Positions 16,030 to 63,163 of a DNA stretch of 64,000 nt are shown piece after piece. Under the pieces are notes generated by a model. The model made no database searches, was not told the origin of the DNA, and saw only the letters and a program-made list of their open reading frames with translations. The first letter of the stretch is position 1. Every line of letters starts with the position of its first letter. Where the stretch lies: positions 62,001-126,000 of the forward strand of contig CASDPB010000013.1 in NCBI GenBank assembly GCA_949282305.1, in the 5' to 3' direction. The translations under genes were made by a program, and so were the position numbers. Source of the DNA: an uncultured Lentisphaeria bacterium (lineage in GTDB: Bacteria; Verrucomicrobiota; Lentisphaeria; Victivallales; UBA1829).

Positions 16030-16061
16030 TTCCGATTATGTCATGATTCAGGGGAATGTTT

Positions 16062-18101
16062 ATGAAATGTTTTTTGCGGATATTCTTATTGTTGTCTTTG
16101 GTGCTGCTGGCGGGTTGCGCCACCAAGCCGGAAATTGATCCGGATGATAAAAAAACGGGATATGTCTGGACTCCGTCCGGAGTTACGGAGGAGCTTGCGG
16201 GCGATGACCCGATTGAGCCGTTCAACCGCGCAATGTTTGTGACGAATGATTTCATCATGCACTGGATTCTGCGTCCTGTGGGGTATGTCTACGGTTCCAT
16301 CATGCCGCGCGAGGGAATCAAGAGAATTGACATGGTTTCGGACAATCTGGCATTTCCGGGACGCATGATCAGTTGTTTTCTTCAGGCGAAGTTTGCAGGC
16401 GGCGGAACGGAATTCCTGCGTTTTCTGACCAATTCGACGATTGGCATTGTCGGTATTTTTGACCCCGCGGATGCGTGGTTCGGGCTGGAGCGCAGACCTG
16501 AAAACATGGGACATGCCTTTGCAAAGTGGGGAATCGGGCCCGGCTGCGTGCTGATCCTGCCGCTGTCCAGTGCGACCAATCCGCGCGATCAGATCGGGGC
16601 GCTCTTCGATTCGGTTCTGGATATAAAATTCATTATTCCCTATGCCCAGACGATTGCCGGAGTCAACCGTGCCGTAAATTCGTATGACGGCTACAATACG
16701 ATGACGGAAACCTGCACCGATCCCTATGATATGGCAAAAATGGGACTTTCCGCCATGCGTTATGTGGTGGTCAATGATTTCAGGGAACGTCCGATGGTTT
16801 TCACGGATTACAGCTACGGACAATACCGGGCGCCGGAGAAGGGCACGGAGGGGGAACAGGTCAGGACCGCTCATTACTATGCGCCGCAAAATCCTCTGGT
16901 GGACACACTTCGCGTCGGAATGTTCAAGATGCAGAAGAACGATGTCAGTTTCTGGATCAAGACTTCGCTCTGGAATCATGATTTTGTGACGCTCGGCAGT
17001 ACACGCGGTGTGCGTTTCTCCGAGGAAGCTCCGGAAATCCGTTATCAATACTGGCAGGGGGCGGATCCGACCAACACGCTGGTCATCCTGATTCCCGGAA
17101 TCGGGACTCATTACAAGGGGGCGACCCTTCGCGCGCTGGCGGAAGTGCTCAATACAAACGGGTATTCCGTGGCGGTTGTCAGCAGCACGATGAACAAAAC
17201 ATTCAGTGAAGGAGCGGGCTTGAAGTTTCCCGGTTATGTCCCGGACGATGTCGCCGCTGTGCGCAGAGCTCTGAAGCTGATCCTGAAGGACATCGGCGCA
17301 AATACGAAACTTGCCCCGAAGCGTGTGGTCGTCGGCGGGTATTCGCTGGGCGGTCTTCATACTCTGCATCTGGCGGCTCTTGAAGCGAAAGAGAATACCC
17401 TTGGCGTGGACCGTTTTGTCGCTCTGAATCCGCCGGTGGATCTGCTCTATGCGATGAACCGTTTCGATGCCTTTACCGATGTCTCAAAGCAGTGGACCAA
17501 AAAAGAGTTTTTTGAACTTGCCGGCGACGGTCTGATGAAGTATTTCGGCATCATGAACAGAAAATATCCCCCCATGCAGCCGGATCAGGCGGATTCTGCG
17601 AAGTATCAGGTGCCGCTTTCGCCGGAGCAGGCGGCGGTTATGGCGGGAATCTCTTTCCGCATGACATTGCGGGAACTGCTGATTTCAGCACACCGCCAAT
17701 ACGGACTGAACCAGCTTCAGACTCCTTACTCCTGGTGGAACAGAACGGAGCTTTACAGGGAGATCGATCAATACAACGGAATGGGATACGTCAGGAACTT
17801 CCTGCTTCCCGAATATCAGCAGAAAGACCCGTCCGTGACGATGGAAAAACTGAACTGGAATTCCGGTCTGCGCAGCATCGCGGAGGATTTGCGGAAGAAT
17901 CCGAAGATTCGCGTCCTTCACAACATGGACGATCCGATTCTTTCTCCCGAGGATCGTGCCTTTCTGGATCGTCTGCTGGGGAATAAACTTACATGGTTCG
18001 ACTGTGGCGGGCACATGGGAAATCTTTATCTGATCGAGTATCAGCAGAAACTCTGTGAACTGCTCGGCACTCCCGGAATCCCGCCGAAGAAAGAAGAATA
18101 A
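16062..18101 (+). CDS. MlaA (VacJ) lipoprotein fused to an alpha/beta hydrolase
   Basis: A 679-residue lipoprotein. The signal peptide ends in the lipobox LLAGC (Cys19), so it should be an outer-membrane lipoprotein. Residues about 45-260 match MlaA/VacJ: DPIEPFNRAMFVTND, FLTNSTIGIVGIFDPA, GHAFAKWGIGPGCVLILPL and ATNPRDQIG. MlaA removes phospholipids from the outer leaflet of the outer membrane. Residues about 340-670 form an alpha/beta hydrolase: LVILIPGIGTHYKG (oxyanion region) and GGYSLGG with nucleophile Ser428. NMDDPILSPED and CGGHMGN supply the likely Asp and His. AGGGGA seven bases before 16062 favours this ATG over the one at 16056. A direct link between lipid extraction and ester cleavage is suggested. 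Confidence 0.88.
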   Translation: MKCFLRIFLLLSLVLLAGCATKPEIDPDDKKTGYVWTPSGVTEELAGDDPIEPFNRAMFVTNDFIMHWILRPVGYVYGSIMPREGIKRIDMVSDNLAFPGRMISCFLQAKFAGGGTEFLRFLTNSTIGIVGIFDPADAWFGLERRPENMGHAFAKWGIGPGCVLILPLSSATNPRDQIGALFDSVLDIKFIIPYAQTIAGVNRAVNSYDGYNTMTETCTDPYDMAKMGLSAMRYVVVNDFRERPMVFTDYSYGQYRAPEKGTEGEQVRTAHYYAPQNPLVDTLRVGMFKMQKNDVSFWIKTSLWNHDFVTLGSTRGVRFSEEAPEIRYQYWQGADPTNTLVILIPGIGTHYKGATLRALAEVLNTNGYSVAVVSSTMNKTFSEGAGLKFPGYVPDDVAAVRRALKLILKDIGANTKLAPKRVVVGGYSLGGLHTLHLAALEAKENTLGVDRFVALNPPVDLLYAMNRFDAFTDVSKQWTKKEFFELAGDGLMKYFGIMNRKYPPMQPDQADSAKYQVPLSPEQAAVMAGISFRMTLRELLISAHRQYGLNQLQTPYSWWNRTELYREIDQYNGMGYVRNFLLPEYQQKDPSVTMEKLNWNSGLRSIAEDLRKNPKIRVLHNMDDPILSPEDRAFLDRLLGNKLTWFDCGGHMGNLYLIEYQQKLCELLGTPGIPPKKEE

Positions 18102-60799: not shown

Positions 60800-63163
60800 A
60801 TGGGCATGAGAGATTTGGACGGCGTTTTCCTCCACTGGCCTGCGGTGTGTGTGGTGATCGGGGGAAAACGATATGCCGCGGAGACAGATTATTTTGAAGA
60901 CGATGATCTGTGCATGGCGGTTCGCCTTGAAAAGCACGGCGGTGTCTGGTGCAAACATTTGGACGTCAGGGCAAAGCGCCCTTTGCCCACGCCTGATTAC
61001 GTGGAAATGGATCGTCAGACCGTTCCTGATCCGGCGATGAGGCTTTGCGGCTATCTTGACACCGGAGGGCAGGTCAGGCGCGAGGGTGCCGAGGAGGAGG
61101 GGGGAGGCGTGATTCCCGGCTGCGGATACCCCCTGATCGGGAAGAAAATCTTCACCGGGCTTGCGCATCAGGCGGGATTTGCCCGGATCGAATCGCAGGA
61201 TGTCGCCTCCACGACGTACTCCCTGCGGCATCATCCGGTCTGGGACGGGGATCGCCTGGAGAGTATGGACGCTGTATTCTGTGTTTCGGAGGAACCGGAA
61301 AAAGACTTTGCCGAATATATTGAAAGCATCCGGGCGCCCATGCCTTTAAAACCGTTCTTTGCCTTTTGCTCCTTCTGGTCAGACCCGTATCTCGGCAATT
61401 ACGAGTATGCCGTGACCGGAGAGGCAATGAAACGTTTCATCGGCGCCTGGCACAAGCTGGGATTTCAGCCGGACGCTTTCACTTTCGACGCCGGATGGCA
61501 GAACCGGAAAAGTTTTTTTGAACCGAAGCCGGGGCTTGAGTTTGAAAAATATCCGAATCTGAGCCTGTGGGTTTCTCATAACGGACCGATGGGAATAGAC
61601 CCCGATTTTCTCCGTGAAAACGGAATTGCCGTGGGGGGCGGTTTGAGTTCCGCCTACTGCGGGGACAATTACGGAGTGCTGCTTGACCGGAAACTGGAAC
61701 AGAGACTGACGGAAAGATTCTGCGAACTTGCGCGGCACTGTCTGCACCTGAAGATCGACTGGGACAACGATTGCGCGGTGTCGCCGGAATTCAAGGAGAA
61801 ATATCCGACGCGGGATCATGTCCGTGAAGGTTCGATCAATGCGATGAACCGGATCATGGATGCGGTGCGGCGTGTGAATCCGAATCTTCTGGTGCGCAAC
61901 GGCTGGTGGCCGTCTCCGTGGTGGCTGCGCCGTGTGCAGCATGTTTTCCTGAGTCAGTCCGGCGATTCCGAATACGCCAGCCTGCCGGCGCTCCATCAGC
62001 GTGCTTCCGCCGCGACCCACCGCGATATGATGTATTACAATCATTTGTTGCGCGACCATTCAATGATTCCGCTTTCCAGCTTTGACAACCATGAATTTCC
62101 GAATTCGATCCGCAATGCGTTTGACGATACGGATTCCACATGGACGGACAATCTGATGCTCTGTCTCCTGCGGGGAAGCACCTATTTCACCTGGACTGTC
62201 CAGCCGGAGAGCCTGACCCCGTATCAGGCGGAAACCATGAGGCACGCCATGCGTTTTGCCCGGGACTATGCGCCGCATCTTTTTGTGAAAGACGGCTGTA
62301 TGTTCGGCGGAAATCCGGGACTGGGCGAAGTATACGGCTTTCTTCAGCCCGGAGAGGAGGAATCCTGGTGCGTCCTGCGGAACCCCGCGCCGATGCCTCG
62401 GAAATACCGTCTGCCGGAATCCTTTGAACATGCCGTCCAGTTTTATCCCGATTTCCGGATGCTTGAGCGTGAAATTGTCCTGCTGCCCGAGGAAGTGAAG
62501 TGCCTGATCGTTTCACGGAAAAAGATCGGATTGCCGTTCGCCATGCCGTTCCGGGCGGTGAAAAGCGGGACGCGGTATGAGTATCGTTTCCCCGCATCGG
62601 AAACTGTTTCCGCGAACGTGCAGCCGATGGTGGCGGAACTGCACCGGATTCCCGAACTGAAGTTTGAGAACATCTCGTTTGAGTCCGGCGGAACGTCTCT
62701 CTTTTTCGATATTGTGGCGCCTTACCGCATGCATGATCTGCGTGTCTGCATGAGAATTGGCGGAGAGGATGCCGGAGAGCTTCGTTTCAAGGCGTATTCC
62801 TCCCGCTACTACGGGAATGTCCCCACTTCGTCCTTTGCACTTCCCGTCACGGAGATTTGTCCCGGAAAGACGGGCTATGGCGAGACAAAGAATCCCGAGA
62901 CATTTTTCCGGAAGAAGGAACGGTATTTCACTTTTCCCGTCCCTGCCGGCGGAAGAACGTCCTTTGATCTGGAGTTTTCACGGAAGACGGAGCCCGGGGC
63001 TGTGGAGCTCTGGTGCATCGGTTATGAGGACGTTTCCGCAGGGTGCCTGAAACGATCCCGTGCTCCGCTGAAGTTTGTGAAGACGCTGCCGCTTCAGCAT
63101 CCTTACGGTTTTCCGTGCGCGGTCAAATGCTGTCTGACGGAGGACTGTTCCCGTGATTGTTGA
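60800..63163 (+). CDS. GH36/GH27-like (clan GH-D) glycoside hydrolase
   Basis: A 787-residue enzyme with no signal peptide. An N-terminal beta-sandwich is followed by a TIM barrel starting near FFAFCSFWSDPY. FTFDAGWQ corresponds to the clan's DDGW motif. LKIDWDND carries the K-x-D nucleophile Asp320, and SQSGDSEYASLP the likely acid/base Asp. A C-terminal beta domain ends the protein. The clan contains alpha-galactosidases and alpha-N-acetylgalactosaminidases; this sequence is divergent, so the substrate is uncertain. AAGGA lies about ten bases before the ATG. Its stop overlaps the amidohydrolase start. Confidence 0.82.
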   Translation: MGMRDLDGVFLHWPAVCVVIGGKRYAAETDYFEDDDLCMAVRLEKHGGVWCKHLDVRAKRPLPTPDYVEMDRQTVPDPAMRLCGYLDTGGQVRREGAEEEGGGVIPGCGYPLIGKKIFTGLAHQAGFARIESQDVASTTYSLRHHPVWDGDRLESMDAVFCVSEEPEKDFAEYIESIRAPMPLKPFFAFCSFWSDPYLGNYEYAVTGEAMKRFIGAWHKLGFQPDAFTFDAGWQNRKSFFEPKPGLEFEKYPNLSLWVSHNGPMGIDPDFLRENGIAVGGGLSSAYCGDNYGVLLDRKLEQRLTERFCELARHCLHLKIDWDNDCAVSPEFKEKYPTRDHVREGSINAMNRIMDAVRRVNPNLLVRNGWWPSPWWLRRVQHVFLSQSGDSEYASLPALHQRASAATHRDMMYYNHLLRDHSMIPLSSFDNHEFPNSIRNAFDDTDSTWTDNLMLCLLRGSTYFTWTVQPESLTPYQAETMRHAMRFARDYAPHLFVKDGCMFGGNPGLGEVYGFLQPGEEESWCVLRNPAPMPRKYRLPESFEHAVQFYPDFRMLEREIVLLPEEVKCLIVSRKKIGLPFAMPFRAVKSGTRYEYRFPASETVSANVQPMVAELHRIPELKFENISFESGGTSLFFDIVAPYRMHDLRVCMRIGGEDAGELRFKAYSSRYYGNVPTSSFALPVTEICPGKTGYGETKNPETFFRKKERYFTFPVPAGGRTSFDLEFSRKTEPGAVELWCIGYEDVSAGCLKRSRAPLKFVKTLPLQHPYGFPCAVKCCLTEDCSRDC

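Follow-up and report, generated by a model that had tools for sequence, protein, structure and literature searches.

The 64,000-nucleotide window analysed here, positions 62,001 to 126,000 of contig CASDPB010000013.1 (assembly GCA_949282305.1) from an uncultured Lentisphaeria bacterium, encodes a lipoprotein in which an MlaA domain is fused to an alpha/beta hydrolase (16062..18101; all features described below lie on the + strand and are numbered by the window). This protein is very probably a single-chain counterpart of MlaZ-MlaY, a two-gene system of Pseudomonas aeruginosa. In the phylum Verrucomicrobiota the hydrolase family is found only with MlaA, the linkage of the two halves is obligate, and MlaC and the hydrolase are near-exclusive partners of MlaA. 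The hydrolase seems to have taken the place of MlaC, with degradation replacing carrier-borne transport. The two-gene principle of extraction plus a lipase has already been published and the idea itself is not new; what is new is the one-chain fusion, its spread across a lineage and its mutual exclusion with MlaC.

The preliminary description of this DNA, made from the letters alone, had proposed an MlaA fused to an alpha/beta hydrolase, and the single uninterrupted open reading frame of 679 amino acids plus stop, with both Pfam domains above their cut-offs, confirms it. Residues 1-19 form a lipoprotein signal peptide (16062..16118) ending in the lipobox L16-A17-G18-C19 (LAGC), as read from the sequence. 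The MlaA domain follows at residues 48-226 (16203..16739). It matches PF04333 over nearly the full length of the family (profile positions 2-185 of 195; E=5.1e-41, 140.9 bits against a cut-off of 25) and PDB MlaA by phmmer (E=1e-13), and the earlier call of a clear MlaA with a lipobox is borne out. A linker at about residues 239-269 (16776..16868), placed by an extrapolated alignment to 8i8r and by a predicted local distance difference test score (pLDDT) of 60-67, leads into an MlaY-type alpha/beta hydrolase at residues 270-679 (16869..18098). The latter is assigned by hhalign to P. aeruginosa MlaY and by an Abhydrolase_6 match above the family cut-off (residues 341-654, E=5.6e-7).

The AlphaFold2 model of the whole chain has a mean pLDDT of 89.3 and a predicted template modelling (TM) score of 0.90. 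Its N-terminal half resembles crystallised MlaA (5nur_B; TM 0.83 by target length, 24% identity), and its C-terminal half finds esterases and lipases on top among solved folds (best Z 19.9 over 234 residues, root-mean-square deviation (rmsd) 3.0). Modelled alone, the hydrolase half reaches a pLDDT of 89.2 and a best structural match of Z 19.8 over 271 residues (rmsd 3.6). Among solved structures the closest are esterases of various kinds whose Z-scores tie, and no one lipase family stands out. These matches settle the alpha/beta-hydrolase fold and leave the substrate unfixed.

The catalytic residues are predicted to be Ser428 in GYSLGG (17343..17345), Asp624 (17931..17933) and His651 in GGHMG (18012..18014). 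The preliminary description had named this serine with a plausible Asp/His, and D624 and H651 prove to be its partners. In the model, Ser428 occupies a nucleophile elbow between strand 421-427 and helix 429-443, while Asp624 and His651 come after the last two strands (616-621 and 643-646). An all-helical insertion of about 140 residues (about 461-601; 17442..17864) lies between core strands ahead of Asp624, falls within the alignment to MlaY as well and, by the model's secondary structure, is a probable lid or cap. Loss of the catalytic Ser or His among homologues, which the preliminary description had named as a sign against the proposal, does not occur: across 57 homologues, counting the letters present, Ser428 is found in 57/57, Asp624 in 56/56 and His651 in 56/56.

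The kinship with MlaY and MlaZ extends over both halves. The MlaZ-MlaY system (PA3239-PA3238) is reportedly the subject of a 2023 PNAS paper by Guest et al. On the P. aeruginosa plasmid NZ_CP042268, MlaY (WP_126577619.1) and a VacJ-family MlaZ are encoded side by side; we take this pair to be PA3238/PA3239, given the gene order of PAO1 and the exact match of the triad numbering. The hydrolase half shares 26% identity with MlaY over 348 amino acids by BLASTP (E=6e-32) and matches it over 339 columns by hhalign (E=7e-45), while the MlaA half is 31% identical to MlaZ over 137 amino acids (E=2e-18). The plasmid copy of MlaY carries S187, D388 and H415 in the same alignment columns as S428, D624 and H651, and Ser187, Asp388 and His415 are its reported active site (PMC11977310). 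MlaZ is proposed to remove misplaced phospholipid from the outer leaflet and to hand it on to MlaY, which degrades it (PMC11131202, PMC12569750), and MlaY is described as a lipase or phospholipase (PMC11131202, PMC11977310, PMC12569750). P. aeruginosa is described as having no PldA, with MlaYZ substituting for it (PMC10925693). An Escherichia coli pldA mutant is reportedly rescued when MlaY and MlaZ are supplied together (PMC11977310). By its homology to MlaY, the hydrolase half of the fusion is probably a phospholipase.

Searched with the hydrolase half, 72,556 plasmid records yielded six loci, in Pseudomonas, Skermanella and Fusobacterium. Each lies beside an MlaA/VacJ gene, and the matches therefore mark a specific family, beyond generic hydrolase similarity. 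The pair in Fusobacterium vincentii (L081, 3794-5834) is MlaY-MlaZ-like, unannotated and far from both Proteobacteria and Verrucomicrobiota. On Skermanella plasmids (L082, L083) the pair is followed by a gene for a TamB-domain protein and preceded by a resistance-nodulation-division (RND) transporter gene and a small unknown gene; this context on megaplasmids suggests an envelope lipid operon.

The fusion was looked for across 289 genomes of the phylum, which are related to one another, and counts drawn from them are not independent. Relatives of the protein occur in 114 of these genomes. In 83 the MlaA is linked to the hydrolase, as a one-gene fusion in 75 (two of them, G153 and G242, truncated at the edge of a contig) and as two abutting genes in 8. 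Strong hydrolase matches fall in exactly the same 83 genomes, with MlaA fused or adjacent, and nowhere else among the 289 searched. Relative to where the mlaA stop codon ends, the hydrolase of the split pairs starts at -17 to +29 nt, with an overlap of 4 nt in G040. The split hydrolases carry their own N-terminal signal sequences, as judged by eye, which, quite apart from the fusion, places the enzyme outside the cytoplasm. The lipobox, scored by a strict pattern, occurs in 35/48 fused homologues (several more have one by eye) and in 0/8 split MlaA genes (L040-L047), and fusion and lipidation go together. Three genomes (G114, with loci L048 and L062, G227 and G267) each have two paralogous MlaA-hydrolase genes. 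The close named relatives are uncultured, metagenome-assembled genomes of Victivallales and Lentisphaeria, which assigns the window to this group, and a contig scan with the full-length protein gave close relatives only. Full-text searches, with subscription papers outside their coverage, turned up no paper describing the fusion.

A replacement of MlaC is suggested by its distribution. MlaC was found in 31/289 genomes of the phylum. It occurs in 29/31 genomes with stand-alone MlaA versus 1/83 with hydrolase-linked MlaA (Fisher p about 1e-23, a value that only describes the table, the genomes being related). The sole exception, G173, encodes a fusion plus a separate stand-alone MlaA. Its MlaC sits beside the stand-alone copy, and therefore no hydrolase-linked MlaA locus in the sample adjoins MlaC. 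In the loci compared, stand-alone MlaA genes do adjoin MlaC. The source genome gave no match to MlaC (PF05494). In Escherichia coli, the C-terminal tail of MlaA recruits MlaC (PMC10719372). In the alignment to 8i8r, extrapolated past its end, this tail matches the stretch of the fusion from about residue 239 onward, the point at which the linker and then the hydrolase set in. The usual lipid carrier has apparently been lost from the lineage with the fusion, and the lack of MlaC from this genome and from 82 of the 83 hydrolase-linked genomes suggests that degradation replaces MlaC-borne transport. The preliminary description had the fusion combine lipid cleavage with Mla retrograde transport, which on these counts it probably does not.

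The history of the partnership was read from trees of both halves. In the MlaA tree, strong support (99/99) unites the hydrolase-linked proteins of the Victivallales type. The MlaZ proteins of Pseudomonas, Skermanella and Fusobacterium make up another group (100/96), placed close to proteobacterial MlaA. This tree gives no sign that the Lentisphaeria MlaA half and Pseudomonas MlaZ share an origin apart from other MlaA, so one and the same hydrolase family is partnered with MlaA of different branches. MlaA comes first and the hydrolase second in Lentisphaeria, whereas in Pseudomonas, Skermanella and Fusobacterium the hydrolase comes first. When the hydrolase tree is rooted on MlaY, the split genes come out as sister to the Victivallales fusions, with another fused group outside. 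This topology needs two changes of state, which may be two fusion events or a fusion and a fission; a single clade of all fused proteins is not rejected (approximately unbiased (AU) test, p=0.197).

If the protein acts as a single-chain MlaZ-MlaY, the MlaA half of an outer-membrane lipoprotein would extract phospholipids mislocalised to the outer leaflet. The lipid would then pass through the MlaA channel to the periplasmic hydrolase half, tethered where other MlaA proteins hold their MlaC-recruiting tail. There the phospholipid would be cleaved at an ester bond, and what is released may be recycled. An outer-membrane location is predicted; the Ala at +2 of the lipobox and the LolA found in the genome are consistent with it and go no further. 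Of the preliminary outline, an MlaA with an intact hydrolase acting on extracted phospholipid stands as the best reading, without the parallel to PldA and the tie to retrograde transport.

Several points weigh against this account. The hydrolase half shares little identity with MlaY, enzymes of the alpha/beta-hydrolase fold catalyse many kinds of reaction, and support for enzyme activity of the fusion comes from sequence and model. The missing MlaC could be a divergent MlaC, and the two-by-two counts of MlaC and hydrolase, drawn from related genomes, are not independent. The MlaA tree separates the Lentisphaeria proteins from Pseudomonas MlaZ, which leaves room for more than one origin of the partnership. 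Finally, the source genome has no match to LptD, leaving the composition of the outer leaflet uncertain.

An alternative is that the enzyme is a transacylase or lipid remodeller, moving an acyl chain from the extracted phospholipid to another envelope acceptor, for modification and not disposal. Alpha/beta hydrolases with a Ser-Asp-His triad include acyltransferases, and the large helical cap gives an acceptor room; however, the homologue that has been characterised, MlaY, is called a lipase or phospholipase and no conserved acceptor enzyme is encoded nearby, which makes this reading improbable. Nutrient scavenging, in which the MlaA half would let in foreign lipids from the surroundings for the hydrolase to digest as food, is very unlikely. 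Nothing specific speaks for it. Against it, the MlaA half shows the conservation of MlaA that extracts phospholipid, genes for lipid catabolism are not conserved in the neighbourhood, and the precedent of MlaYZ is one of outer-membrane homeostasis. It is just as doubtful that the substrate is another periplasmic ester, such as an acyl chain of lipid A or a lipoprotein, with the MlaA half merely an anchor: the tie among varied esterases is compatible with this, but the homology to MlaY argues against it, and a hydrolase family never found away from MlaA in the phylum would not be expected if MlaA only anchored it. That the fusion is due to chance or faulty assembly, or that the hydrolase is dead, has no point in its favour and is close to inconceivable, a chimera being ruled out by fusions in tens of separate genomes and far-apart genera, with abutting gene pairs in sister lineages, and a dead enzyme by the invariant triad among the 57 homologues.

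The single-chain MlaZ-MlaY differs from the known systems in several respects. Like the P. aeruginosa pair, it combines an MlaA-family protein with a homologous alpha/beta hydrolase, the triad is shared and the genes are linked. However, the Pseudomonas system consists of two genes, hydrolase then MlaA, whereas here one chain runs from MlaA to hydrolase, and in the tree the two MlaA halves do not pair as sisters. A canonical MlaA pathway exists in P. aeruginosa as well, whereas the fusion described here bears a lipobox and is the only MlaA of a genome in which no MlaC was found. With the canonical E. coli system (MlaA-MlaC-MlaBDEF) it has in common the MlaA domain and the MlaE, MlaF and MlaD encoded elsewhere in the genome, but MlaC is absent and a hydrolase stands at the position of the MlaA C-terminal tail. 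The minimal systems with a long MlaD in Veillonella likewise have MlaEFD without MlaC, yet they lack any MlaA (PMC10665443), whereas here MlaA is kept and attached to a probable lipase. PldA (OMPLA, PF02253) resembles the fusion in its proposed role, the removal of outer-leaflet phospholipid by hydrolysis, but PF02253 has no match in the source genome or among the Pfam matches of the fusion protein. The PldA-like lipase of the preliminary description is instead homologous to the periplasmic lipase MlaY, and a functional double of PldA is ruled out, the family being different and PldA absent from the genome.

The source genome encodes one MlaA, with no second copy. It is 96% complete, and single absences are therefore provisional; that of MlaC, unlike these, is repeated in 82 genomes. 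Two MlaE-MlaF-MlaD transporter loci of the mammalian cell entry (MCE) type are on contigs C84 (L061, 5799-8439) and C16 (L060, 5248-7849), with no MlaC or MlaA nearby, so the earlier remark that no other mla genes are visible holds for the neighbourhood of the fusion. LpxC (E=1e-92) is found alongside LolA, and LptD (PF04453) gave no match; a divergent LptD, an assembly gap or an unusual lipopolysaccharide export route could account for this. The genes around the fusion in the window, named from their translations, are lspA, miaA, a helicase gene, secG and tpiA-pgk-gapA; they look unrelated, and across the compared loci no neighbours beyond the MlaA-hydrolase pair are conserved. The reading frame has a coding-like composition, with a GC content of 0.63 at third (GC3) against 0.40 at second (GC2) codon positions. 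A probable ribosome-binding site, AGGGG (16050..16054), read from the sequence, lies 7 nt from the ATG at 16062; a second in-frame ATG at 16056 sits too near it, and ATG 16062 fits.

In which direction the Mla system moves lipids has been a matter of dispute. The chances are about even that MlaA serves as a general gate for extraction, from which either of two exchangeable acceptors, MlaC or the hydrolase, takes over. If the single-chain MlaZ-MlaY reading is true, a lineage whose sole MlaA is joined to a probable degradative enzyme, and in which MlaC was not found, would be independent evolutionary evidence that MlaA is a gate for extraction. If the gene were annotated simply as an MlaA lipoprotein, the enzyme half would go unnoticed. 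A one-chain protein would also fix the geometry between channel and enzyme, which would be convenient for structural work and reconstitution in a pathway that has otherwise been studied mostly through Pseudomonas genetics.
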